A stretch of 64,000 nucleotides of DNA, taken from Immundisolibacter sp. Its GTDB lineage: Bacteria > Pseudomonadota > Gammaproteobacteria > Immundisolibacterales > Immundisolibacteraceae. The position numbers and the translations under genes are program-made. Below the pieces are notes generated by a model. That model ran no database searches. It had not been told where the DNA came from and worked only from the letters and a program-made list of their open reading frames with translations. The stretch lies in the NCBI RefSeq assembly GCF_014359565.1, contig NZ_JACIZD010000003.1, positions 124,001-188,000 on the forward strand, read 5' to 3'. Below, in pieces: positions 2,238 through 16,211 of the stretch; position 1 is the stretch's first letter; each line of letters opens with the position of its first letter.

Positions 2238-5200
2238 ATGAACGAGCCAGCTACTCACCACGATCCGTCGGCTTATAACGCCTTCTTTGTCAAGGCGAGC
2301 GGCGATTCGGGGGCGCGCCCTTTTTTGCAGGCGCATCCTTGGCAGGGTGAGCTTGGGCAAGGCGGCGCGTGTTGCGACCGTCTTATTCGCATTCCCACGG
2401 GGTTTGGCAAAACACTGGGTGTGCTGGTCGCGTGGTTGTGGCACCGCGTGGCGCGTGGTGACGACGCCTGGCCAATGCGGCTGGTGTGGTGTTTGCCGAT
2501 GCGAGTTCTTGTCGAGCAAACCGAGGCGGAGGTTCGGGATGTTTTGCGACGTCTGGATCGGTTGTGGGACCAGCGGGGTAACCACGACAGCAAGGTCGGC
2601 GTGCATTTGCTCATGGGTGGCGCCATAGCGGGCGACTGGCATCTTTACCCGGAGCACCCGGCAGTGCTGATCGGCACCCAGGACATGTTGTTGTCGCGGG
2701 CGCTGAACCGCGGTTACGGAGTACCGCGTGCGCGCTGGCCCATGGAATTCGGTCTGCTCAATCAGGATTGCCTGTGGGTGATGGACGAGGTGCAGCTCAT
2801 GGATGTGGGCCTGGCCACGTCCGGGCAGTTGCAGGCGTTTCGGCGTGACGATGCTCAGACCGGGAAGGGCATCCGCCCGTGCCGGACCTGGTGGATGAGT
2901 GCCACCTTGCAGCCGTCCTGGTTGAAGGCCAGCCCGGAAATGACGGCGCTGGGTGCAGACCTGGAACGCGGGCAGACCCGCATTGCGCCCGCCCAGCGCG
3001 TCGGTCCGCTGTGGGACGATGTCCAGAAGCCCTGTCGGTTACTTGCGCTGCCAGATGGCGCCGTGCTGGCAAGACGCGTCGCTGCTGCGCATATCGAACA
3101 CGACTGCGGTCGTAAAGGTCCCACCGTCGTGGTGGTCAACACCGTCAAGACGGCAGTCGAGGTCCACGCCCATCTCAAGCGCGACACTGCCCTGGCGGGC
3201 ATTGAACTGAGGCTGGTGCACAGTCGCTTCCGGGGCGCCGAACGCGCGGCGTGGCGCGAGGAGTTTCTGAACCGCACAGCGTGCGCACCCGGTACGGACC
3301 GCATCATCGTCGCCACGCAGGTCATCGAGGCCGGCGTGGATATGTCTGCTGGCCTGCTGTTTACCGAACTCGCGCCTTGGGCCAGCCTCGTGCAGCGCTT
3401 CGGCCGGGCGGCTCGGTGGGGCGGAACAGCGCTAGTGGAGGTTATCGACTTCCAGCCGGTCAACGATAAGGCGGCCTTGCCTTACACGCTGGCCGAACTG
3501 GACGCCGCGCGTTCTGCGCTGTCGCGGCTCGACTCCGTCGCACCGCGCGACCTGGAGACCTTCGAGGAAACAAACCCGCAATTGCTCGAAAGCCTTTATC
3601 CATATGCCCCACGTCATCTGCTGCTGAGGCACGAGCTCGACGAGCTGTTCGACACCACACCCGACCTGAGCGGCGCGGATGTAGATATTTCGCGTTTCAT
3701 CCGGTCCGGAGAGGAGCGCGACCTTCAGGTTTTCTGGGTCGATATCGATCCGGACACCGCCCCGGATGCCATGCTGCGGCCATCACGCGACGCGCTGTGT
3801 GCTGTGCCGTTCCTGGCAGCCCGAGACTGGCTGTGCGGTAAGGAAACCAGCACCAAGAAAGCCCCGCGCCTGGCGGAGAAGAAACGTGCCTGGGTCTGGA
3901 GTTATCTGGACGGCGAGTGGCGGCGTGCGGAACGCAAGGACCTGTATCCCGGTCAGACGGTGCTGGTTGCGGCAGATACCGCCGGCTACCAGCCAGACGT
4001 CGGCTGGTCGCCCGCCAGCACTGCGCCGGTTCCTCCGGTGGCGATGGTTGCGCCCAGTCCGGAAGAACAGGCCGACTCCAGCGAAGACGATGAAGCGCTG
4101 AGCGCTGGCATTCGCTGGCAGACCATCGCCGTACATGGCGCGCAGGTCGGGAATACAGCGGCTGACGCGGCGCAGTCGCTTGGCCTGGACCTTCCCTCGC
4201 TGTTGCAGCTTGCCGGCCGCTGGCACGACGCTGGCAAGGCCCTGCCGCCATTCCAGAACTCCATGTGCAGCGCCAGCCGCCCGGCCCGCACCGATCTGGC
4301 CAAGGCGCCGAAGGATGCGTGGCTAGCCCCGCACCAGCTTTACCCGGACCCGCCCCATGCCCGCCGCCGTGGCCTGCGGCACGAACTCGCCAGCACGCTG
4401 GCCCTGTTCGCCGTGCTGATGCGCCATCAGCCAGACCACCCGGCGTTGCTCGGCCCCTGGCGTGGCCTGCTGGACGCCGCCGGGATTCAGGCGGCGCCGG
4501 TTTCAGTCGCCGCTGATTCGCCCAATTCCCTCGAGCAGGAAATACTGGACCTGAACGCCGATGACTTCGACCTGCTGGCCTATCTGGTGTGCAGCCATCA
4601 CGGCAAGGTACGCATGGCCTGGCACGCGTCCCCGGCAGACCAGCAGGCCGCTGACCGCACGCTGCGCATTTGTGGCGTGCGCGATGGCGAGGTTCTTCCC
4701 TCCCTGCCGCTGGCCACCGCCGACGGCCAGTATCTGAACCTGCCCGCCAGCGAACTGCGCCTGGATGCATCTGCCGCCGGCCTGAATCCGCGCACCGGCC
4801 GTGGCTGGACCGAACGAGTACTCAATCTGCTGAACCGCCACGGTCCCTTTGCGCTGGCGTATCTGGAGGCATTACTGCGCGCTGCCGACCAGCGCGCCTC
4901 ACGCAATCCCGTTGGCGATCCCCTGTTGGAGGCAGACAATGCAGCCCATGGACTTGGAACAAGTCATCGAGAACTGGCGCAGATTGTCGGCGGCGGAACG
5001 CCGCCTTCGGCATCTGCGCGCGATCCCGCGTCACGTGGCGAACTCCATGGCGATGGAGAACGAGCCGGTGAGCGAGCAACTCATCCGCGATCAGTTGAAG
5101 CATCGGATTCCAGCACTCGACGAATCGTCACCTCCCTCGGCGAACTGAGTTACGCCGATCTGGCGCCGCATTTGGCAGAGCGCATTGGTCTGCTGGAAGC

Positions 5201-5687
5201 CGACATTGCCGACCGCCTGTACGGTGCCCGGCCGCTAGACGAATCGCTGCTCCTCGACTTCCATCGGCGCCTGTGTGGCGATCTGGTGCCGGATATTGCT
5301 GGTCGTTGGCGCAGTACCGAGGTGCAGGTCGGCGCGCACCTGCCACCACCGGCATGGCAAGTGCCAATGCAAATGCGCGAGTTTTGCGCCGATCTGGCCG
5401 CACGCGTCGCACACGCCCCCAGCTGGAGCGCGGATGTGCTGCTGGAGCTGCTGGTGTTCGCAGAAGGCCGTCTGCTGCACATCCATCCTTTCGCCGATTT
5501 CAACGGTCGGCTTACGCGTTTGTTCCTGCTCGAATTGTTGTATCGGCTTGAACTTCCCATCGTCGACACCGCCGTTTCGAGCGAGGCGGAGCGGCAGGAG
5601 TACTTCGCCGCCTTGCGTGCTTACGATGCAGACGATCCGGCCCCACTCACCGCTGTCTGGCGCCATCGCTTTGAGCAGGAGGTTTGA
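2238..5687 (+). CDS. cas3: Type I-G Cas3 helicase-nuclease with C-terminal Fic domain in the same frame
   Basis: An uninterrupted 1149-codon frame. The N-terminal two-thirds is an SF2 helicase: PTGFGKT (residues 53-59), DEVQ (about 182), SAT (about 220), and IEAGVDMS followed by QRFGRAAR (about 386). An HD nuclease follows (WHDAGK near 661, SHHGKVR further on). The helicase-then-HD order is typical of type I-G Cas3. After LEALLRAADQRASRNP the frame passes through about 60 low-complexity residues and enters a Fic domain with HPFADFNGRLTR (about 1083-1094). This keeps the catalytic His, acidic, Asn and Arg positions of HxFx(D/E)GNGRxxR, with Phe in place of the first Gly. Cas3 unwinds and degrades targets recruited by the Csx17 complex; Fic domains transfer AMP to proteins. 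Whether cells make one fused protein is unclear, because a separate small gene overlaps the junction. csx17 follows 2 bases after the stop. Confidence 0.88.
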   Translation: MNEPATHHDPSAYNAFFVKASGDSGARPFLQAHPWQGELGQGGACCDRLIRIPTGFGKTLGVLVAWLWHRVARGDDAWPMRLVWCLPMRVLVEQTEAEVRDVLRRLDRLWDQRGNHDSKVGVHLLMGGAIAGDWHLYPEHPAVLIGTQDMLLSRALNRGYGVPRARWPMEFGLLNQDCLWVMDEVQLMDVGLATSGQLQAFRRDDAQTGKGIRPCRTWWMSATLQPSWLKASPEMTALGADLERGQTRIAPAQRVGPLWDDVQKPCRLLALPDGAVLARRVAAAHIEHDCGRKGPTVVVVNTVKTAVEVHAHLKRDTALAGIELRLVHSRFRGAERAAWREEFLNRTACAPGTDRIIVATQVIEAGVDMSAGLLFTELAPWASLVQRFGRAARWGGTALVEVIDFQPVNDKAALPYTLAELDAARSALSRLDSVAPRDLETFEETNPQLLESLYPYAPRHLLLRHELDELFDTTPDLSGADVDISRFIRSGEERDLQVFWVDIDPDTAPDAMLRPSRDALCAVPFLAARDWLCGKETSTKKAPRLAEKKRAWVWSYLDGEWRRAERKDLYPGQTVLVAADTAGYQPDVGWSPASTAPVPPVAMVAPSPEEQADSSEDDEALSAGIRWQTIAVHGAQVGNTAADAAQSLGLDLPSLLQLAGRWHDAGKALPPFQNSMCSASRPARTDLAKAPKDAWLAPHQLYPDPPHARRRGLRHELASTLALFAVLMRHQPDHPALLGPWRGLLDAAGIQAAPVSVAADSPNSLEQEILDLNADDFDLLAYLVCSHHGKVRMAWHASPADQQAADRTLRICGVRDGEVLPSLPLATADGQYLNLPASELRLDASAAGLNPRTGRGWTERVLNLLNRHGPFALAYLEALLRAADQRASRNPVGDPLLEADNAAHGLGTSHRELAQIVGGGTPPSASARDPASRGELHGDGERAGERATHPRSVEASDSSTRRIVTSLGELSYADLAPHLAERIGLLEADIADRLYGARPLDESLLLDFHRRLCGDLVPDIAGRWRSTEVQVGAHLPPPAWQVPMQMREFCADLAARVAHAPSWSADVLLELLVFAEGRLLHIHPFADFNGRLTRLFLLELLYRLELPIVDTAVSSEAERQEYFAALRAYDADDPAPLTAVWRHRFEQEV
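4939..5148 (+). CDS. Fic-antitoxin-like small protein nested out of frame in cas3
   Basis: A 69-codon gene in the +1 frame relative to cas3. It has a strong ribosome binding site GGAGG at 4928-4932, six bases before ATG 4939. The product is rich in charged helix-formers (DLEQVIENWRRLSAAERRLR) and contains SMAMEN at residues 36-41. This fits the (S/T)xxxE(G/N) inhibitory motif with which Fic antitoxins such as VbhA block ATP binding by their cognate Fic enzyme. It lies immediately upstream of the Fic domain, the usual antitoxin-then-toxin order of class I Fic modules, and its TGA at 5146-5148 overlaps a CTG in the Fic frame. Over the same bases the cas3 frame encodes a low-complexity stretch rich in Gly, Ser, Arg and Ala, which suggests selection acts on the small gene here. 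The alternative is a remnant of a class II Fic N-terminus displaced by frameshifts. Confidence 0.62.
   Translation: MQPMDLEQVIENWRRLSAAERRLRHLRAIPRHVANSMAMENEPVSEQLIRDQLKHRIPALDESSPPSAN
5145..5687 (+). other. Fic domain segment; possible independent reading from a CTG at the antitoxin stop
   Basis: This is the Fic part of the cas3 frame. It begins LSYADLAPHLAERIGLLEADIADRLYG and carries FHRRLCGDLVPDIAGRWR, then HPFADFNGRLTR. If the toxin were made separately, no ATG, GTG or TTG lies in frame between 5043 and 5171. The candidates are CTG 5145, which overlaps the nested gene's stop as CTGA, or TTG 5172. A CTG restart coupled to antitoxin termination would give about 180 residues, a normal size for a bare Fic domain. 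If neither start is used, the domain exists only as the tail of Cas3. Confidence 0.5.
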
Positions 5688-5689
5688 CC

Positions 5690-7906
5690 ATGATCCTGCA
5701 CCGACTCGACGGCTGCGCGCCCGTGCCGCTGGCGCATTACCTAAAGGCGCTGGGCATCCTGCGGCTGGTAGCCGAACAACTCGACCCCGAGGCGCGCGGC
5801 TGGTGGGAGGGTGAGCGTTTTTTTCTGGCCAGTCACAGCGACGAGGAAGAACTGCTGGCCTTCTTCCTGAACCGCTATGCACCAACGGCAATTGTGTCTC
5901 CGTGGAACAAGGGATCGGGATTTTTCTACATCAACGATCCGGGACTCGCTCCTGTAGAAGCTTCGGTTGCGCCTCGCCTGGCCCGTATCCGCGAGGGGAT
6001 CGGCGCAGCTCGAAGAATGCTCGACGCGATGAGCGCGGCTGACCAGCGCGTTCGGGCGATCAAGGAAGAAGTCAAGGACAAATCGCTCAGCAGGATCGAG
6101 CGCGAACAACTCAAAAAATCCGAGGATTACCGCAAACGCCTGGCCGATGCCGAGCGCCAAGTCAAACAGATTAAAACCAATCTGATGCCCGACTTGCGGC
6201 GGGAATGGCGCGGGTCGCACCGAGAGTGGATGGACGCCGCACTGGTGCTCGACGAGGTCGGCACAGCGCGTTTTCCAGCATTGCTGGGGACGGGCGGCAA
6301 CGATGGCCGCCTGGATTTCACCAACAACTACCTACAACGGCTTGGAGCGCTGTTTGATCTGTCGGCAGCGGGCGCGCCGGCCCGCCCCGAAGCGGTTGAA
6401 TCACTGCGCGAGGCGCTGTTCGGTGCTGTTGGGCGCAGCCGGACGTCCGGCGCCGGGGCTGGGCAGTTCGATCCCGGCGGTAATACAAACGCCTGGGATT
6501 TCATTCTCATGCTCGAAGGCGCGGTGATGTTCACAGCCGCAAGCACGCGGCGATTGAATACTCAGGGGGCCTCACGCGCCGCCGCGCCGTTCGCCATTTC
6601 GGCTCATGCGGCGGGGTACGCCAGCGCGTCTGATAGCGACGAAAGCGCCCGCGGCGAGCAATGGATGCCGCTATGGTCCCAGCCGATGACCTTTGTCGAA
6701 CTGCATCGGTTGCTGGCCGAAGGCCGGGCCCAGCTTGATGCTCAGACGGCAACCGAGCCGCTTGATCTTGCGCGGGCGGTCGCGCGTCTGGGCGTGGCGC
6801 GCGGCATTCACGCCTTCCAGCGCTATGGGTACATCGAGCGCAACGGCCAGTCCAATCTCGCCGTCCCCCTCGGCCGCTTCGTCGTGCCCGAGTATGCTGC
6901 GCCCACGCTGGCGTGCCTTGACGATCTCGATGCGTGGTTGCCGCGTTTGCGCCGCGAAGCGCGCCGTAAGGGGGTGCCGGCCCGGTTTACGCAGGCGGAG
7001 CGCCGGCTGGCCGATGTGCTGTTTGCCCTCACGCAACATCCGAACGAGCCGACGCGCTGGCAGACGGTGCTGCTTCGGCTGTCGGACATCGAGGCGCTTC
7101 AGGTGCATGGCATCGGGATCAACGCGGGGCCGATTCCGCGCTTGCGCCCCCAGTGGGCGCACGTGGCGGACGACGGTAGCCCGGAACTGCGTCTGGCGCT
7201 GGCGTTTGCCCTGCAATGTGCCGATGCGCGAGCGTCGAAGCGCGATGGCGTACGTCGGCACTGGCTTACCTTGGATAAAGGCCGTTTCCGCACCAGTGGC
7301 ACCGGCAGCGCACAGCGGTTAGCACCGGAAACCGACCGCGTCATGCAGGGCCGCAGTGGCGCCGATGACGCCCTCGCGCTGTTGTCGCGGCGAATGGTCG
7401 AGGCCGCTGCGCACGGCGAGCGCCGTTTGCCGCTGGAACCGGGTTTTGGCATCGCGGCCAGCCGCCACGACCTCGCGCGCCTGATTGCAGGCGAAGTGGA
7501 CCTAGATCGCTGCTTGAGTTTGGCGCGTGCCCTGATGGCGCTTGATGGCCGAGATTGCGCGGCACACCCGCCGCGTCTTGCAGCGCCGCCCGCCGACTGG
7601 CCAGACGATGCTTGGCTCACGATTCGCCTGGCCCTGCTGCCGTGGCCGCTGCCGGACGGCCGTCATGCTGGCGCGGACCCGGCCATCCTGCGGCGGCTGC
7701 AGGCGGGCGACGCCTCCGCGGCGGTCGGGCTGGCTATCCGTCGTCTGCGCGCGGCCGGCATTGCCAGCAACGTGCGCGCCGCCGCCACCGCGCCGGAGTT
7801 GGCGCGCCGCTATGCCGCAGCGCTGGCATTCCCGATTAGCCGCGATACAGCGGTCCGATTTGCTCACCGCCTCGCGCCTATTTTCGACCAGGAGAACGCC
7901 GCATGA
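5690..7906 (+). CDS. csx17: Csx17, large subunit (Cas8-like) of the type I-G effector
   Basis: A 738-residue protein from ATG 5690, chosen because AGGAGG at 5677-5682 lies seven bases upstream; a TTG at 5684 overlaps the cas3 stop and has poor spacing. Family hallmarks are the opening LHRLDGCAPVPLAHYLKALGILR and the block PTAIVSPWNKGSGF. The length matches other Csx17 proteins. In type I-G systems Csx17 takes the Cas8 place: it recognises the PAM and stabilises the R-loop. A charged, probably coiled region lies at about residues 105-165 (KEEVKDKSLSRIEREQLKK). Its stop overlaps the csb1 ATG by four bases, indicating translational coupling. Confidence 0.9.
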   Translation: MILHRLDGCAPVPLAHYLKALGILRLVAEQLDPEARGWWEGERFFLASHSDEEELLAFFLNRYAPTAIVSPWNKGSGFFYINDPGLAPVEASVAPRLARIREGIGAARRMLDAMSAADQRVRAIKEEVKDKSLSRIEREQLKKSEDYRKRLADAERQVKQIKTNLMPDLRREWRGSHREWMDAALVLDEVGTARFPALLGTGGNDGRLDFTNNYLQRLGALFDLSAAGAPARPEAVESLREALFGAVGRSRTSGAGAGQFDPGGNTNAWDFILMLEGAVMFTAASTRRLNTQGASRAAAPFAISAHAAGYASASDSDESARGEQWMPLWSQPMTFVELHRLLAEGRAQLDAQTATEPLDLARAVARLGVARGIHAFQRYGYIERNGQSNLAVPLGRFVVPEYAAPTLACLDDLDAWLPRLRREARRKGVPARFTQAERRLADVLFALTQHPNEPTRWQTVLLRLSDIEALQVHGIGINAGPIPRLRPQWAHVADDGSPELRLALAFALQCADARASKRDGVRRHWLTLDKGRFRTSGTGSAQRLAPETDRVMQGRSGADDALALLSRRMVEAAAHGERRLPLEPGFGIAASRHDLARLIAGEVDLDRCLSLARALMALDGRDCAAHPPRLAAPPADWPDDAWLTIRLALLPWPLPDGRHAGADPAILRRLQAGDASAAVGLAIRRLRAAGIASNVRAAATAPELARRYAAALAFPISRDTAVRFAHRLAPIFDQENAA

Positions 7907-8970
7907 ACCTCGACCTTTCCCCGCTTGCCCATACCTCACGTCTGCTGTTTGAGATTCCGCTACGGCCCTTGCAAGGCCAGCGTTTTCAGCCCACCGGATT
8001 TCCGGGACTCGGTGCCGCCACCTTTCAGACCGCCGGCGGCTTGAGCCTGCTGGTGGAAAGCGCGCAGAGCATGGCCAATCGGCTGGAGCTGACTGGCTGG
8101 GATGAAGAAAAAAGCGATCTTAAACAAGAACTGCAAGGGTTGTCGCACGTGAGCGTCGTTCGCGGCGCAGGAAGTACTTCAAGAGATCGGGAGAACTCGG
8201 CAACTAAAGAGTTCCTCACCGACAGTGTCACCGAGGCGCATCGATTAAACAGCCCGTACATCATGTTCGGAAAGGTCAATGGTCAGCTATTTTTTGACGA
8301 ACTTGGCGAGCGGCTAAATGCTTTTGAAGTCGGCCCACTTCCAAGCAGGAAGCAAATTGCTGAGCACTTGATTCATTGGGATATCGGGACGCTTTTGCAC
8401 GGCGTGTTTCTTTCTGCGAAAAAGGGTAAGGACAAAACATTGGCCGGCGGCCGTCTGCGGCTCGCTCGCGCGTTGTCCGCCTTCATCGAAGCCGACGAGG
8501 CGCGCCCCGCGGCGTCTGGCGGGGTCAAGAACGATCACGTAAATCCCAGCGGCGACACCAAGGCCGGGTTTGGCAATGTGCCATTTGCCCGGGACGAGTT
8601 CACTGCCGACCGCATCACGCTGTACGTCAACCTCGATCTGGGCCAGATCCGCGGGTACGGTCTAGGCGCGGACGTAGAGCGACTTCTGACGCTTTTGGCC
8701 CTGTACAAGCTGCGCGTGCTGGTGGACGGCTCGCTGCGCCTGCGCACCGCGTGCGACCTGGAACCGGCCACCGATCGGATCGAGGCCCGTCGCCCGGCAT
8801 CGTTTCTGTTGCCGGACGCGTCCGCTCTGGCCGAGGCCCTGCAGCCCGCCATCGCAGCCTGCCGGGCGCTGATGACCGTCACCGAAGTTCGCTTTGATGA
8901 CGATCTCAAGAAGGCCAAGGACAGCGAGAAAGCCGAAGCCGACGACGACCAGGAAACCGACGGGGAGTGA
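7903..8970 (+). CDS. csb1: Csb1, Cas7-type backbone subunit (GSU0053 family)
   Basis: A 355-residue protein whose ATG overlaps the csx17 stop as ATGA, with CAGGAG just upstream. Family signs are LLFEIPLRPLQGQRFQPTGFPGLGAA at the start (an RNA-binding loop region in Cas7 folds), ESAQSMANRLE, and the block LNSPYIMFG. Csb1 polymerises along the crRNA spacer and forms the backbone of the surveillance complex. The C-terminus is acidic and charged (DDDLKKAKDSEKAEADDDQETDGE), likely a flexible tail. csb2 begins four bases after the stop. Confidence 0.9.
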   Translation: MNLDLSPLAHTSRLLFEIPLRPLQGQRFQPTGFPGLGAATFQTAGGLSLLVESAQSMANRLELTGWDEEKSDLKQELQGLSHVSVVRGAGSTSRDRENSATKEFLTDSVTEAHRLNSPYIMFGKVNGQLFFDELGERLNAFEVGPLPSRKQIAEHLIHWDIGTLLHGVFLSAKKGKDKTLAGGRLRLARALSAFIEADEARPAASGGVKNDHVNPSGDTKAGFGNVPFARDEFTADRITLYVNLDLGQIRGYGLGADVERLLTLLALYKLRVLVDGSLRLRTACDLEPATDRIEARRPASFLLPDASALAEALQPAIAACRALMTVTEVRFDDDLKKAKDSEKAEADDDQETDGE

Positions 8971-8974
8971 TCCC

Positions 8975-10582
8975 ATGCCGACCTTGTGGATTCGTTTCCC
9001 CGGCCGGCGTTACCACGCCACGCCATGGGGCCATCATGTCAATGAAGGCTTGGTTGAATGGCCGCCTTCGCCGTGGCGCTTGCTGCGCGCCCTGATTGCC
9101 ACTGGCTACGCCAAACTGCACTGGTCCACCGACGGCCCGCCCTCGATCGCCCGCACCCTGATCGAAAAGCTTGCCAGCACGGCGCCAAGGTATCGATTGC
9201 CCCCGGCGGTCGGCGCCCATAGCCGCCACTATATGCCGCTGGCTCGCTTCAAGAACGGGCGCGAAGACACCACCCTGGTGTTCGATACCTGGGCGCAGGT
9301 GGACGACGGTGAACTTGGCGTGCAGTGGGCTGTGGCGCTGGCGAATGACGAACGGGCGTTGCTAGCCGAACTGGCGCAGGCGCTCGGCTATCTCGGGCGC
9401 TCCGAAAGCTGGGTGGAAGCCGTGCTCGCGGATACTGACAACGCCGATGGTTTTGACGTGTTTGTCGGCGAAGCCCGCGATTGTCCGGGGCCTGGCTGGG
9501 AGCAGATAGCTCTGCTCGCGCCCCAATCGGCCGAGGATTACGTGCGGTGGCGAGCGCAGGCACTGGCCGATGCCCAGGCCCGCGCGGGTATCGATCCCGG
9601 CAAAGCCCGGCAACCGGCCGCGGAAAAGAAAAAAATGGCGGCGCTAGAACAGACGCTGCCACCGGACCTCATTGCCTGCTTGCAGGTGGATACCGCCTGG
9701 CTGCACCGGCTGGGCTGGAGCCAGCCGCCCGGCAGTCGCAAGCTGTTTTACTGGCGGCGCAGCGAGAGTCTGGTGCCGGCAGCCCCGAAGCCGCGCTTCC
9801 GGACCAGTCGCAGTGCGCCCGTGTCGTGCATGCTGCTTGCCTTGAACCACGGTAGCGGCAACCACGGTGCTCTGCCGCGCTTGGAACGTGCGCTACCGCA
9901 AGGTGAGTTGCTCCACCGCAGCTTGGTGGCTCAGGCTAGCCGTCTGGCGGGGCACTCGGTGGTGCTCAGCGGCTGCGATGAGCAACGCAAACCGCTCGCT
10001 ACGCCGCACCAGCACGCCCACCTGATCCACCTGGACCTGGATGGTGACGGCCGTCTCGACCACGTGCTGATTTGGGCGCCGATGGGCCTGGATGACGCGG
10101 CACAGGCAGCGGTGCGCGCCACCCGGCGCAGCTACACCAAAGGCACGGGGGCGTTGCATCTGGCCTTGGCAGGAAGTGGGGACTGGATCGATCTTGCCAG
10201 CTTGCCGGACCCGTTTGGCCCGCGCCTGCGCGCCTTGGCAGGCAATGACACCGAAGGCGCAAACCACTGGCGCTCGCTGACACCATTCGTGCCGCCGCGC
10301 CATTTGAAGGTACGTGGCCGCAATAGCTTGGTTGGACAAATCAATGCCGAGCTCGCCAGTCGCGGCATGCCTGACGCACTTTCGGTCTGTGTTTTTGATC
10401 CCCACACTGACGACGAAGCCCGTCAGGCGCGCCATTTCAAACGCGTGCGCAGACACGGGGCGCCGCCGGCGCAGGATGTCGGCTTCGTGTTGGAGCTGGG
10501 GTTCGCTGATCCGGTTCGGGGACCCATCGTGCTGGGCTATGGCTGTCACTACGGCCTGGGCGTATTCGGCGCGGTCAAATGA
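8975..10582 (+). CDS. csb2: Csb2, Cas5-Cas6-type subunit (GSU0054 family)
   Basis: A 535-residue protein from ATG 8975. GGGGAG at 8962-8967 supplies the ribosome binding site, and a longer upstream extension of the frame runs inside csb1 and is rejected. The N-terminal domain LWIRFPGRRYHATPWGHHVNEGLVEWPPSPWRLLRALIATGY is the Csb2 signature and corresponds to a Cas5-like fold. The C-terminal half, with repeated His residues (HLIHLDLDGDGRLDHVL and SVCVFDPHTDDEARQARHFKRVRR), should be the Cas6-like part that cuts pre-crRNA at the repeat hairpin. There is no separate cas6 in the locus, which agrees with this. It is the last gene of the interference operon. Confidence 0.88.
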   Translation: MPTLWIRFPGRRYHATPWGHHVNEGLVEWPPSPWRLLRALIATGYAKLHWSTDGPPSIARTLIEKLASTAPRYRLPPAVGAHSRHYMPLARFKNGREDTTLVFDTWAQVDDGELGVQWAVALANDERALLAELAQALGYLGRSESWVEAVLADTDNADGFDVFVGEARDCPGPGWEQIALLAPQSAEDYVRWRAQALADAQARAGIDPGKARQPAAEKKKMAALEQTLPPDLIACLQVDTAWLHRLGWSQPPGSRKLFYWRRSESLVPAAPKPRFRTSRSAPVSCMLLALNHGSGNHGALPRLERALPQGELLHRSLVAQASRLAGHSVVLSGCDEQRKPLATPHQHAHLIHLDLDGDGRLDHVLIWAPMGLDDAAQAAVRATRRSYTKGTGALHLALAGSGDWIDLASLPDPFGPRLRALAGNDTEGANHWRSLTPFVPPRHLKVRGRNSLVGQINAELASRGMPDALSVCVFDPHTDDEARQARHFKRVRRHGAPPAQDVGFVLELGFADPVRGPIVLGYGCHYGLGVFGAVK

Positions 10583-10656
10583 GCGCCGTGCTCGGTGTTC
10601 GAGCCCCCAATGGTCCGGCGGTTCGGCGAGCCGAGGAATCGCCACACGGCCCAACC

Positions 10657-11025
10657 TCACACCCCATACGGCACCACCACCTCCAACCCGGCGCCGCTGC
10701 GAAAGTCGCGCGTGTTGCGCGTGACCAGCGCCAGGCCGTGGTGCATCGCCAGCGCCGCCTGGAAGGCATCGGGCAGTTTCCAGCGTTCGCTGCGGCGCAG
10801 GCGGGCGGCGAGGTCCGCAATGTCCAGCGTGATCGGCAGCGTGGGGAACAGGTCCAGCAGCTCGCGCGCCAGCGCCGTGTGCGTGTCGTCAAAGCCGGCC
10901 AGCACTTCGGCGCGGGTGATCACCGATACCGCGCAATCGGCGCCGTGTGCCGACAGGTATCGGGTCGCCGGCTCGATGCCGTTCAGGTGGTCGATGACGA
11001 TCACCGAGTCCAGCAGCCGTGTCAC
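10657..11025 (-). CDS. PIN-domain toxin, VapC-like
   Basis: A 122-residue protein from GTG 11025, whose codon overlaps the antitoxin stop as GTGA, so the two are translationally coupled. PIN features are LLDSVIVIDHLNG (first acidic residue after a beta strand), VITRAEVLAGF (conserved Glu), LRRSERWKLPDAFQAALAMHHGLALVTRNTRDF (the Asp of PDA, plus the T-R-N-x-x-D-F ending). VapC enzymes are Mg-dependent RNases that cut tRNA or rRNA and arrest growth. A longer frame upstream of 11025 only reads through the antitoxin. The pair runs against the cas genes and sits exactly between the interference and adaptation modules. Confidence 0.88.
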   Translation of the reverse strand: MTRLLDSVIVIDHLNGIEPATRYLSAHGADCAVSVITRAEVLAGFDDTHTALARELLDLFPTLPITLDIADLAARLRRSERWKLPDAFQAALAMHHGLALVTRNTRDFRSGAGLEVVVPYGV

Positions 11026-11267
11026 GCGTCGTCGTTCCACTCGCCCCGCAGGCGCTGCTGCCAGGCCAGTCCATCCCCGTGTCGCCACAGGCCCGCGGTA
11101 CGCGCCAGCACTTCCTCCAGCGCCGGTCGGGCCTGGCTTTGTTCGCGCAGGCGGTAGCTGTGCACCGCCTGGCGCACCAGTTCGGTCATCGGCAGCTTGC
11201 GCCGGCGCGCCTCCTGGTCCAGCCAGGCCTTGTCGTCGGGATCCAGATTGACCAGTGTTTTTGGCAT
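11022..11267 (-). CDS. Ribbon-helix-helix antitoxin, VapB/CopG-like
   Basis: An 81-residue protein from ATG 11267. The N-terminus KTLVNLDPDDKAWLDQEARRRKLPMTELVRQAVHSYR is a ribbon-helix-helix DNA-binding domain: a beta strand, two helices and the conserved turn before MTELVR. The C-terminal 35 residues (ALEEVLARTAGLWRHGDGLAWQQRLRGEWNDDA) would wrap the PIN toxin. The antitoxin precedes its toxin and overlaps it by four bases, the usual VapBC arrangement. It probably represses its own promoter through sites just upstream (GATATC repeats at 11276 and 11298). Confidence 0.88.
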   Translation of the reverse strand: MPKTLVNLDPDDKAWLDQEARRRKLPMTELVRQAVHSYRLREQSQARPALEEVLARTAGLWRHGDGLAWQQRLRGEWNDDA

Positions 11268-11273
11268 ATGGCG

Positions 11274-11303
11274 AAGATATCCCTAATGATCAGAAAAGAT
11301 ATC
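11274..11303 (-). promoter_or_regulatory. Candidate operator of the VapBC pair
   Basis: Two GATATC palindromes (11276-11281 and 11298-11303) flank a central TGATCA palindrome (11288-11293). All lie immediately upstream of the antitoxin ATG in an AT-rich patch. Spaced short palindromes are what a dimeric ribbon-helix-helix repressor would bind. The site also lies between the divergent antitoxin and cas4-cas1 genes, so it could influence both. Confidence 0.45.
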
Positions 11304-11406
11304 GGTTGGTCCATTGTCGGCCAGATTGAAGGGCGTTTCCAGGCGTCGACCGGGCGCCCCCACCGATAAGCCAAGCGACCAGGCAGGCTGCCAGAGGAGG
11401 ACGAGC

Positions 11407-13131
11407 TTGGACACCTACGATCCGCCCAACGACCGCCAGCCCGAGCTGCTGCTGCCATTCCCGGAGCTGTCCGGCGACCAGCCGCTGCTGCCGGCGCGCA
11501 TGGTCAACGAATACCAGTACTGCCCGCGCCTGGCGTATCTGGAATGGGTGCAGGGCGAGTGGGCCGAATCGGTGGACACGGTCGACGGCCGCTACCGGCA
11601 CCGGCGGGTGGACAAGCCTTCGGGCGATCTGCCGGACCCGGGCGATTCGCCGCCCATGGAGCCGCAGCACGCGCGCTCCATCACCCTGTCATCCAACCGC
11701 CTGGGGCTGATTGCCCGCATGGACGTGGTGGAGGCCGACGGCACCGTCGCCACACCGGTGGATTACAAGCGCGGCAAGCGCCCGCACGTGGCCCGCGGCG
11801 CGTACGACCCGGAGCGCGTGCAGCTGTGCGTGCAGGGCATGATCCTGGAAGAACACGGTTTCGAGGTGCCCGAAGGCGCGCTGTACTTTGCGCAGAGCAA
11901 GGAGCGCGTGCGCGTGGAGTTTGACGACGACCTGCGCGCGCTGACCCGCAGCGCCGTGGATGGCCTGCGCCACATCGCCGCCGGCGGGCAGATTCCGCCA
12001 CCGCTGGTGGACAGCCCCAAGTGTCCGCGCTGCTCGCTGGTCGGCATCTGCCTGCCGGACGAGGTGAACTTTCTGGCGCGCATGGCGTTGCCGCCCCGGC
12101 CACTGGCCGTGCCGCACGACGAAGCCATGCCGCTGTACGTCCAGGCGCGCGGCGCCAAGGTGACCAAGAGCGGCGAAACGCTGGAAGTGCACGTGGAAGA
12201 TCAAAAAGTCGCCACCGCGCGTCTTGGCGAGACTTCGCAGGTGGTACTGCAAGGCAGCGTCTATCTGACCACGCCGGCTCTGCACGAACTCATGGCGCGC
12301 GAAATTCCAGTCACCTGGCTGTCCTTCGGCGGCTGGTTTCTGGGCCACACCGTGGGCCTTGGCCACAAGAATGTGGAAATCCGCACCGCCCAGTACCGCG
12401 CCAGCTTCGACGATCGGCACTGCCTGCGCCTGGCGCGCGGCCTGGTGGTGGCCAAGATTCGCAACGCCCGCACGCTGCTGCGGCGCAACTGGAAGCGCGG
12501 TGAACTGCCCGAGCACCTGCTCGACGAGTTTCGGCGTGACGTCGAACAGGCCGACCGCGCCAGCAGCCTGCAAACCCTGCTTGGCATAGAAGGCAACGCC
12601 GCGGCACGTTATTTCCGCAATTTTCGGGAAATGCTGGGCGACGGGGACGGCGTCAGCGCCAGCTTCGACTTCGAAAAGCGCAATCGCAGGCCGCCGGCCG
12701 ATCCGGTCAACGCGCTGCTGTCCTACGCCTACAGCCTGCTCACGCGTGCCGTCACGGTGGCCTTGACGGCTGTGGGGTTCGATGCCTACCGCGGCTTTTA
12801 CCACCAGCCGCGCTACGGGCGGCCAGCCTTGGCGCTCGATCTCATGGAACCATTCCGGCCGTTGATTGCGGATTCCAGCGTCATCATGGCCATCAACAAC
12901 GCCGAACTGCGCCCAAGCGATTTTTTGAGCGTGGCAGGCTCGGTGTCGTTGACCAGTGATGGGCGCAAGCGCTTCATTGCCGGCTTCGAGCGCCGCCTGA
13001 TGCAGGAAGTCACGCATCCGCTGTTCGGATACCGGGTGAGCTACCGCCGGTTGCTCGAACTTCAGGCCCGCCTGCTCGCACGGCACTTGCTGGGCGAAAT
13101 ACCCGAATACCCCAACTTCATAACCCGCTGA
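11407..13131 (+). CDS. cas4-cas1: Cas4-Cas1 fusion, spacer acquisition nuclease/integrase
   Basis: A 574-residue protein. The start is TTG 11407, preceded by AGAGGAGG (11393-11400) with six bases of spacing; an in-frame extension to 11314 has no such site. The Cas4 domain (to about residue 220) shows a first cysteine in [13 protein letters not shown], catalytic acids and lysine around RMDVVEAD and VDYKRGKRP, and the closing cluster [10 protein letters not shown], as expected for an iron-sulfur RecB-like nuclease. The Cas1 domain follows with [10 protein letters not shown], the metal-binding Glu of [13 protein letters not shown], and the His and Asp of [22 protein letters not shown]. The fusion is characteristic of type I-G loci; Cas4 trims prespacers and selects those with a correct PAM. 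Its TGA overlaps the cas2 ATG. Confidence 0.93.
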
Positions 13132-13421
13132 TGGACGAACACCTTTACATCGTCACCTACGACATCGCCGACGATAAGCGTTGGCGGTCCGTGTTCAAGA
13201 TCATGAAGGGCTACGGGGAATGGCTGCAGCTTTCCGTGTTCCAGTGTCGCTTGTCGGCACGGCGCCACGCCGAGCTGATCGAGCTGCTCACCGGCGCCAT
13301 CAACAACCGGCACGATCATGTGCTATTGGTGGACATCGGCCCGGCCGAGCGGGTCACGCCGCGGGTGGTGAGCCTGGGTAAGAATTTTGAAGCGGTGGCA
13401 AAGGTGCCCGTCATCGTCTAG
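13131..13421 (+). CDS. cas2: Cas2, spacer acquisition subunit
   Basis: A 96-residue protein starting at the A of the cas4-cas1 stop (TGATG). The opening [38 protein letters not shown] is a textbook Cas2 ferredoxin-like start with the conserved Asp after the first strand. The [15 protein letters not shown] segment forms the later strands. A Cas2 dimer bridges two Cas1 dimers in the integrase complex. It is the last cas gene; the leader begins directly after it. Confidence 0.95.
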
Positions 13422-13647
13422 GAACTAGGCTGGATGGATGGAGCAAGTTGCCCCAGCCACGCGAGCGCTGCCCTGGTGCATTACGGACCGGCCAGCGCTC
13501 GCGCGGTATAGCTCTTTGAAAATTTGGAAAAAAATGGACCGACAAGGCAAAATCTCTCGGCCAGGTGGGCGTCGCAGGCACCGGCACACCAGACCGCTCG
13601 CGCGGACCTCTTGCAAACCGCAACCAGTAAGACGCTCAGAAGGGCCT
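13422..13647 (+). promoter_or_regulatory. CRISPR leader
   Basis: 226 bases between cas2 and the first repeat without a credible gene. It holds a perfect 11-base inverted repeat, CGCGAGCGCTG (13460-13470) and its complement (13493-13503), with a 22-base loop. An A/T-rich tract around 13510-13535 includes GAAAATTTGGAAAAAAATGG. This polarity (leader next to cas2, perfect repeats nearest, degenerate repeats at the far end) makes it the acquisition end and promoter of the array. No exact promoter could be fixed. Confidence 0.75.
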
Positions 13648-15995
13648 GTTTTCCGGGGCTGAATGCCCCGGCCTCATTGAAGCCAGCCGGCGTCGATGCC
13701 TTCCGGGACGTCGGGGAATAGTTTTCCGGGGCTGAATGCCCCGGCCTCATTGAAGCGCGGTCAGCAGTGCAATTACCGCCGTCAGCGGCGCGTTTTCCGG
13801 GGCTGAATGCCCCGGCCTCATTGAAGCTCCAGCGCGCCGCCGCCCTGGTTAATCAGCACCGCCAGTTTTCCGGGGCTGAATGCCCCGGCCTCATTGAAGC
13901 GGGATGATCGCCTTGCCAACCCTGCGGCTCAGTTCCGTTTTCCGGGGCTGAATGCCCCGGCCTCATTGAAGCCACCCCTTTGGCAGCGCCCACCCCGTCA
14001 CCGGCGAAGTTTTCCGGGGCTGAATGCCCCGGCCTCATTGAAGCCCATCCCTGCGGTGGTACTTGCTGTGCCTACGGGTGTTTTCCGGGGCTGAATGCCC
14101 CGGCCTCATTGAAGCGTCAACCGCGCGCGGCGCATCTTCGATGGCCAGGACAAGTTTTCCGGGGCTGAATGCCCCGGCCTCATTGAAGCCTGAACCGCTC
14201 CGGCTGGCGCAGCACGCCCGGTTGTGTTTTCCGGGGCTGAATGCCCCGGCCTCATTGAAGCGACTCCTTGCGCCTCGCGCGCGCATCCGCAGCCGCCTGT
14301 TTTCCGGGGCTGAATGCCCCGGCCTCATTGAAGCATCAAGTACGGACCCAGCCCTGGGGCGGTGTTCGTGCGTTTTCCGGGGCTGAATGCCCCGGCCTCA
14401 TTGAAGCTCGTCGCCCGTCTTGCCTTCTTCCATCGCGTCAAAGGTTTTCCGGGGCTGAATGCCCCGGCCTCATTGAAGCCGGTATCCGATGAGACTTGGC
14501 ATCAGCGCACCCCAGAGTTTTCCGGGGCTGAATGCCCCGGCCTCATTGAAGCCGGGGGCGCTCGGTGTTGGCGCGCACGCCGCGGCAGTTTTCCGGGGCT
14601 GAATGCCCCGGCCTCATTGAAGCTGGGATGCGTTTCTGAATTCGCCTTTTGCGAACGATGAGGTTTTCCGGGGCTGAATGCCCCGGCCTCATTGAAGCCC
14701 AGCGTCTGGCGGGCCTGCTGCATTGAGTAGATCGTTTTCCGGGGCTGAATGCCCCGGCCTCATTGAAGCCGCAGGCGGTTGGCGTCGGCGGCCTCGTAGT
14801 AGGCCAGGTTTTCCGGGGCTGAATGCCCCGGCCTCATTGAAGCCAGGCCGCGATGCGCCGCCCTGAGCCTCGGCGCGACGTTTTCCGGGGCTGAATGCCC
14901 CGGCCTCATTGAAGCCCACCTGCCCTGTCCGCACTGTGGCGCGCTGCAGCGGTTTGTTTTCCGGGGCTGAATGCCCCGGCCTCATTGAAGCTGCGGCCTA
15001 CTCCCTTATGGATGAAGAGGGAGTGGTGTTTTCCGGGGCTGAATGCCCCGGCCTCATTGAAGCGTGTGCGAGTACGCGCTGCGGCGGGTGGCGCACCGGC
15101 GTTTTCCGGGGCTGAATGCCCCGGCCTCATTGAAGCGGCAATCTGGACGTGCGCGAGATAAAGAACCAGGCGGTTTTCCGGGGCTGAATGCCCCGGCCTC
15201 ATTGAAGCGGCGGGCGCATGCGCCAGCGCACTTCGCCGCTGGGTTTTCCGGGGCTGAATGCCCCGGCCTCATTGAAGCGCGTCCCGCGGCGGCGTGTGGA
15301 CCACCACCGCCGCGTTTTCCGGGGCTGAATGCCCCGGCCTCATTGAAGCCCAAGGTCGATCACGGCATCCGCCATTTCCCACAAGTCGTTTTCCGGGGCT
15401 GAATGCCCCGGCCTCATTGAAGCAAGCAGCCCGGCGACGTGATCACCTGGACCAATGGCGTTTTCCGGGGCTGAATGCCCCGGCCTCATTGAAGCCCCAA
15501 ACATAGTGGACATCCGTAGCATCGTGGATAAGAGGTTTTCCGGGGCTGAATGCCCCGGCCTCATTGAAGCAACTTCTTCCCCTCGCCACCGGCCGTGGTT
15601 GCGCGGTTTTCCGGGGCTGAATGCCCCGGCCTCATTGAAGCATTGGTTCGGGTGCGCGTTATAACCGCATCGTCTGGTTTTCCGGGGCTGAATGCCCCGG
15701 CCTCATTGAAGCAACGACCTGCATCAGCTCGAATGCCGCCACGTGGTGGTTTTCTGGGGGCATTCCGCCCCGGCCTCATTGAAGCTGATATGCCTTGCCA
15801 GACCAATGTGCGGACTTCGCGGTTTTCCGTGGCATTCAGCCCCGGCCTCATTGAAGCGCCTGTCCGTACTTGCTAGACATGACGTTGCCGCTGGCGTTTT
15901 CCGGGGCATCCAGCCCCGGCCTCATTGAAGCGAGGCGTACCACGGCCTGTGCTCAACCCGCACCGGCGTTTTCCGGGGTATTCAGCCCCGGCCTC
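13648..15995 (+). CRISPR. Type I-G CRISPR array, 33 repeat units and 32 spacers
   Basis: The 36-base repeat begins GTTTTCC, carries a hairpin core CCGGGGCTGAATGCCCCGG (7-bp stem, 5-base loop) and ends CCTCATTGAAGC, the common ATTGAAG-type 3' handle. Repeats 1-29 (first at 13648-13683, 29th at 15677-15712) look identical by eye. Repeat 30 (15749-15785, 37 bases), 31 (15822-15857) and 32 (15896-15931) are diverged, and 33 (15968-15995) is truncated after GGCCTC. Spacers are 34-40 bases, mostly 35-38. Transcription is expected left to right from the leader next to cas2, with Csb2 cutting at the hairpin base. No two spacers looked alike. In the degenerate repeats the loop reads ATTCA or close to it instead of TGAAT. 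Confidence 0.98.
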
Positions 15996-15997
15996 GG

Positions 15998-16027
15998 CGT
16001 AGGGGCGATGCATGCATCGCCCCTACG
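15998..16027. repeat. Perfect 30-base palindrome after the array
   Basis: The half-site CGTAGGGGCGATGCA is followed directly by its reverse complement, starting two bases after the truncated last repeat. A second copy lies about 120 bases on. Such short palindromes behave like scattered REP or MITE-type elements; its placement suggests insertion into the old end of the array. Confidence 0.8.
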
Positions 16028-16182
16028 TTGCCAACGCTTTGGCGTTCATCCGCTGCCTCCACCTTCATCGGGAACGGTTTGGGATGGGCGGCGTAACGTC
16101 GTCAACGCTTTGGCAGTCGTGTGGCGCCTCAGGCCGCGGTGCGACTGGGGCGATGCATGCATCGCCCCTACGTCGTCAACGC
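16025..16182. repeat. Three copies of ACGTYGYCAACGC between array relics
   Basis: The 13-base unit occurs at 16025-16037, 16096-16108 and 16170-16182, about 70-75 bases apart, close to the period of the CRISPR array. The first two are followed by TTTGGC and the third directly by a relic CRISPR repeat. The first and third follow a palindrome. No gene is visible in this stretch. Confidence 0.6.
16147..16168. repeat. Second palindrome copy (22 bases)
   Basis: The inner 22 bases of the first palindrome are repeated exactly (half-site GGGGCGATGCA and its complement) and followed by TACGTCG, matching the right flank of copy one. The left flank differs (GACT instead of GTA), so this copy is slightly decayed. 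Confidence 0.75.
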
Positions 16183-16183
16183 G

Positions 16184-16211
16184 GTTTTCCGGAGGCTTCG
16201 GCCCTGGCCTC
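16184..16211 (+). repeat. Relic CRISPR repeat beyond the array
   Basis: Begins GTTTTCCGGAGG and ends GGCCCTGGCCTC, aligning over 28 bases with the truncated last repeat at 15968-15995 and ending at the same internal point. It is a diverged repeat now separated from the array by about 190 bases. The rest of the gap to the next gene (16212-16372) shows nothing recognisable. Confidence 0.6.

Follow-up and report, generated by a model that had tools for sequence, protein, structure and literature searches.

The window, that is, the whole stretch of 64,000 nucleotides analysed from an Immundisolibacter sp. genome, harbours, on its plus strand, a type I-G CRISPR locus that is complete and in which every named cas gene scored above the curated cut-offs. 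The genes and the leader are as follows.

2238..5687, plus strand: cas3g, helicase-nuclease carrying a Fic domain at its C-terminus (NCBIfam TIGR02621, 731 bits; Pfam PF02661)
5684..7906, plus strand: cas8g1/csx17 (TIGR04113, 532 bits)
7903..8970, plus strand: cas7g/csb1 (TIGR02570, above cut-off)
8894..10582, plus strand: csb2, Cas5-Cas6 fusion for pre-crRNA processing, probably starting further inside the ORF (TIGR02165, 152 bits)
11314..13131, plus strand: cas4g-cas1g fusion, probably starting further inside the ORF (NF049935, 827 bits)
13131..13421, plus strand: cas2 (TIGR01573)
13422..13647, plus strand: leader, between cas2 and repeat 1, with conserved blocks also present in the same-genus locus L026

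The assignment to type I-G is based on the presence of Cas8g/Csx17, Csb1/Cas7g, Csb2, Cas3g and Cas4g-Cas1g in one locus, all above the NCBIfam cut-offs, and on a 36-nt repeat with a 7-bp hairpin and a 3' handle of the ATTGAAGC type. A 192-aa ORF located between csb2 and cas4g-cas1g (10579-11157) gave no NCBIfam or Pfam match. The Fic domain (PF02661) occupies residues 999-1101 of the Cas3g product; a C-terminus of this kind, with 46-47% identity, was seen in the I-G loci L095 (Thermomonas) and L028/L062, and was not found in the other I-G loci surveyed.

Downstream of the leader lies an array of 33 repeats on the plus strand (R1 to R33, the last being the final repeat), and beyond it a remnant of an older repeat that the first-pass annotation had overlooked. 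The repeats were read directly from the sequence.

13648..15712, plus strand: R1-R29, young loop TGAAT, all identical
15749..15785, plus strand: R30, loop ATTCC, stem C>T and one inserted G
15822..15857, plus strand: R31, loop ATTCA, stem G>T
15896..15931, plus strand: R32, loop ATCCA, intact stem
15968..15995, plus strand: R33, loop ATTCA, stem C>T, without the 3' handle
16184..16211, plus strand: degenerate older repeat remnant, loop CTTCG (23 of 28 positions agree with the old core, against 19 at best in 2000 shuffles)

No differences were observed among the 29 young repeats, each of which reads GTTTTCCGGGGC-TGAAT-GCCCCGGCCTCATTGAAGC. The old repeats comprise R30, 37 nt in length (GTTTTCTGGGGGC-ATTCC-GCCCCGG...), R31 (GTTTTCCGTGGC-ATTCA-...), R32 (GTTTTCCGGGGC-ATCCA-...) and R33 (GTTTTCCGGGGT-ATTCA-GCCCCGGCCTC), which ends after CCTC. 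The remnant starts exactly 3 x 72 = 216 bases, or three repeat units, past R33, and its loop is two steps from ATTCA and five from TGAAT, the old polarity. The spacers are all distinct from one another, so the block structure of the array is not explained by internal duplication, and the 3.09-Mb assembly contains only this one array with this repeat. Two further candidates for degenerate repeats, at 16032 and 16103, matched at 16 and 12 of 28 positions, respectively, no better than shuffles, and were rejected. The degraded tail of the array also contains the perfect palindrome GGGGCGATGCATGCATCGCCCC twice, at 16002-16023, directly after the truncated R33, and at 16147-16168, 145 bases away. 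With three sites in the genome, the third of them imperfect, it was rejected as a genome-wide repeat family.

Direct reading confirmed that the loop switch between the old and the young ends of the array is real, with TGAAT in R1-R29 and ATTCC, ATTCA, ATCCA and ATTCA in R30 to R33, exactly as the first-pass annotation had listed them. The loops of R30-R33 lie zero or one step from ATTCA and five of five steps from TGAAT. Their consensus, ATTCA, is the exact reverse complement of TGAAT, and stem and flanks are the same in both forms. Compared column by column, R30-R33 give the consensus old hairpin CCGGGGC-ATTCA-GCCCCGG, which when reverse-complemented yields exactly the young one; the inversion is visible in the loop only, because the stem arms are each other's reverse complements. 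The first-pass annotation had described a 19-base hairpin inverted as a whole between unchanged flanks. This is exact for the consensus of R30-R33 but for no single old repeat: R30, R31 and R33 each carry a stem mutation, and R32 carries a loop mutation. Private mutations were found in all four old repeats and in none of the 29 young ones, which indicates that time or deleted repeats separate R29 from R30. The switch is abrupt, as had been noted, with no intermediate loop found between R29 and R30, though this age gap falls at the same place and intermediates could have existed there.

Since the leader adjoins R1, R30-R33 are the oldest repeats. Of the genomes in the collections, that of Immundisolibacter sp. 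STE_186 (G001, loci L026 and L032), placed in the same genus, is the nearest relative; its L026 locus shares 88% identity with the window locus in Cas4g-Cas1g and 70% in Csb2, and its array has leader blocks in common with that of the window. The repeats of L026, at least 20 in number, read ATTTCCGGGGC-ATTCAA-GCCCCGGCCTCATTGAAGC throughout, and those on a second contig do likewise. The ancestral loop is thus fixed independently by the ATTCAA of this outgroup, by the leader-distal position of the ATTCA repeats and by the CTTCG of the remnant: judged from these sequences, ATTCA is the ancestral loop and TGAAT the derived one, in agreement with the first-pass annotation. For the reverse direction, with TGAAT as the original loop and a flip of the leader-distal repeats, only the symmetry of an inversion speaks; it would require the flip in four separate repeats and in the remnant, the outgroup carries ATTCAA, and the acquisition rule makes the leader-distal repeats the oldest, so we regard it as hardly credible.

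To place the switch among related arrays, 80 of the roughly 314 I-G loci in the genome collection were surveyed, which yielded 75 arrays with about 2,200 repeats. The arrays follow a common plan of 4-6 nt, a 7-bp stem arm, a 5-6-nt loop, the other stem arm, and CCTCATTGAAGC or a near variant. Across the 75 arrays the stems vary with perfect compensation (CCGCGGC, CCGCAGC, CCACGGC, CCGGGGC, CCCCGGC and others), and the loop is the part of the repeat that varies most between species: loops differ at 0-2 positions where Cas4g-Cas1g is at least 94% identical, and often at three to five of five positions at 85-90% identity. Complete replacement of a loop is therefore not rare in itself, which counts against an inversion here. 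Within the 75 arrays, departures from an array's own loop amounted to one change in 13 repeats and two changes in 2. Another 32 repeats with three changes were an artefact of locus L070: a single scan there took in two separate I-G arrays whose repeats differ, CCGCAGC-AGAAC and CCGCGGC-GAAAT (4820-6320, 10314-12686). Apart from the window array, internal loop changes are confined to at most two bases in every array, and the five-base switch is unique in the set. The loop switches common to several repeats are single steps: in L159 (genome G253) the oldest repeats carry TTTCA and all younger ones ATTCA, and in L045 one base of the loop changes along the array. L088 also changes stepwise. The comparison with related arrays that the first-pass annotation had suggested therefore gave a divided answer, for the two forms are not intermixed and none of the I-G arrays with stepwise loop changes (G253, L045, L088) links ATTCA to TGAAT, but stepwise changes, mostly of a single base, do occur elsewhere, and turnover of loops by point mutation is real in the family. 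A scan of the phylum added few arrays, and searches at family and order level, started from G362, G253, G162 and G092 (2-5 genomes each), gave no close pairs.

The point-mutation paths, also raised in the first-pass annotation, were modelled under HKY with the loop composition of the I-G family and any branch length. The probability that ATTCA becomes exactly TGAAT by point substitution was at most 1.8e-3 at all branch lengths, and a loop drawn independently matched the reverse complement of another with a mean probability of 0.006. All five changes are transversions, whereas transitions account for 37 of the 62 substitutions inside related arrays, and none of the other 31 repeat positions changed across the R29/R30 interval. 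Allowing for a few other relations that might have seemed striking, the probability that the relation arose by chance remains a few percent at most. These results bear on the possibility that the leader-proximal repeat mutated point by point, that the intermediates were later deleted, and that the exact reverse complement is a coincidence. Loops do turn over fast between species, loop changes inside other arrays are mostly of one base, and the private mutations in all old repeats attest to a time gap; such a path would nevertheless have to reach exactly TGAAT by five transversions and no transition, with the rest of the repeat unchanged and no intermediate seen, and we consider it unlikely, though still to be reckoned with.

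The abruptness of the switch would also be expected if the array were a chimera, its leader, cas genes and TGAAT repeats having come from another lineage and been joined to a resident ATTCA array. The same-genus L026 array agrees with this to the extent that its trailer is non-homologous, no spacers or trailer common to it and the window array having been found. However, a donor with CCGGGGC-TGAAT-GCCCCGG and the same flanks was not found in 185 relatives, in 369 class and 397 phylum genomes (about 950 in all), in the 80 loci listed or in viral contigs. In addition, the Cas4g-Cas1g of the window is closest to that of the same-genus locus with ATTCAA, and any donor repeat would still have to be the exact loop inversion of the resident one. 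Such a junction is, in our opinion, distinctly unlikely.

The best explanation, and in our judgement probably the correct one, is a single inversion of the hairpin loop by template switching in the leader-proximal repeat, followed by spread of the flipped form through acquisition. The ancestral hairpin would have been CCGGGGC-ATTCA-GCCCCGG, and the perfect 7-bp inverted repeat around its loop (CCGGGGC/GCCCCGG) is able to serve as a switch point. In the leader-proximal repeat, the nascent strand would copy one stem arm, switch to the complementary template via this inverted repeat, copy the loop backwards and return, which would turn ATTCA into TGAAT and leave stem and flanks intact. As Cas1-Cas2 copies the leader-proximal repeat at each acquisition, R1-R29 would then carry the flipped loop, and R30-R33 and the remnant the original. 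During Cas1-Cas2 integration the first repeat is duplicated via single-stranded gaps, which are then refilled, and the fill-in of the gapped repeat would be a plausible moment for the switch. The interpretation in the first-pass annotation is thus borne out in part: the ancestral loop, the restriction of the change to the loop and the exact reverse complement hold, while one single inversion is probable and its timing, on single-stranded DNA as repeats are duplicated, is plausible.

Both loop forms are predicted to fold with the same 7-bp stem, at -15.9 and -15.3 kcal/mol. The flip was probably neutral and without functional effect, because the two forms fold alike, loops are free to vary across the family and the Csb2 characterised so far recognises a 7-bp hairpin. 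In the type I-G system of Thioalkalivibrio sulfidiphilus, a 36-nt repeat with a 7-bp stem hairpin is processed by Csb2, which recognises the hairpin and cleaves 4 nt past the stem base, leaving an 8-nt handle (PMC9638904). The window array has the same repeat length and stem length, and the repeat of strain ALJ17 (L048) even has the loop ATTCA; unlike the window array, L048 has the stem CCGCGGC and one loop in all of its 59 repeats found.

Pairs of reverse-complement loops also exist elsewhere in the family. The 44 distinct five-base loops include 8 reverse-complement pairs, against 4.2-5.3 expected in four shuffles (P 0.001-0.02; with the window left out, P 0.007-0.06, the strictest shuffles giving 0.06), and none of them are paired by reversal alone or by complementation alone. 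Chance matches are made more frequent by the loop composition, which is itself much the same after reverse complementation. ATTAC and GTAAT both occur on the stem CCGCAGC (L063 and L066, Cas4g-Cas1g 84% identical), and GTTAT and ATAAC are reverse-complement loops on the stem CCCCGGC. GATTC and GAATC, found on two stems, are one base apart and hence uninformative. Of the 12 close same-stem pairs with at least three loop differences, 3 are at most one step away from being reverse complements; for distant pairs the figure is 28 of 807 (Fisher P 0.009, the pairs being non-independent). This family-wide excess, whose statistics are modest and partly non-independent, hints that loop inversion may recur. 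Palindromic CRISPR repeats might even mutate regularly by template switching in their hairpins, a process that would change and repair both stem arms jointly, flip loops and be favoured by acquisition, when the first repeat is single-stranded on both strands and is then refilled. We put this forward tentatively and as rather less probable than not; if true, it would explain why stems compensate perfectly, why loops change fast and why reverse-complement loop pairs are in excess across type I-G.

Loop inversion by template switching during replication through hairpins has been described in RNA genes, with 69 loop-inversion-only events and an enrichment over simulation in rRNA hairpins (Monttinen and Loytynoja 2022, PMC8794818). 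As in the window array, the loop was exchanged for its reverse complement while both perfect stem arms stayed the same, bacterial rRNA included. Those cases differ in that they were traced on phylogenies of rRNA and microRNA loci, in a paper that leaves CRISPR unmentioned, whereas the array here holds both states ordered by age. Palindrome-associated minute inversions in plastid DNA, for example in trnH-psbA and even within species, are likewise small loop inversions between short inverted repeats, but they lie in non-coding DNA and come without an ordered record or Cas processing of the hairpin (PMC2903610). Ordinary variants of CRISPR repeats share with the window the passing of a leader-proximal change to all later repeats; the internal loop switches of the I-G family, however, alter at most two bases, not five as a reverse complement. 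In a limited search of the open-access literature no report of loop inversion in a CRISPR repeat was found, and the switch is best explained as a mutation type known from rRNA and plastid hairpins in a setting for which no earlier description was found. Because a CRISPR array preserves the order in which its repeats were added, mutations in these repeats can be dated from the array itself. Loop inversions caught in this way, if that is what they are, would reveal how palindromic repeats keep perfect stems while their sequence changes, and would indicate whether spacer acquisition mutates the repeat.

Repeat length in the surveyed arrays is mostly 36 nt: six-base loops usually go with a four-base 5' flank (e.g. 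L032, L037 and L072) and five-base loops with a five-base 5' flank, as though a fixed ruler set the repeat ends.
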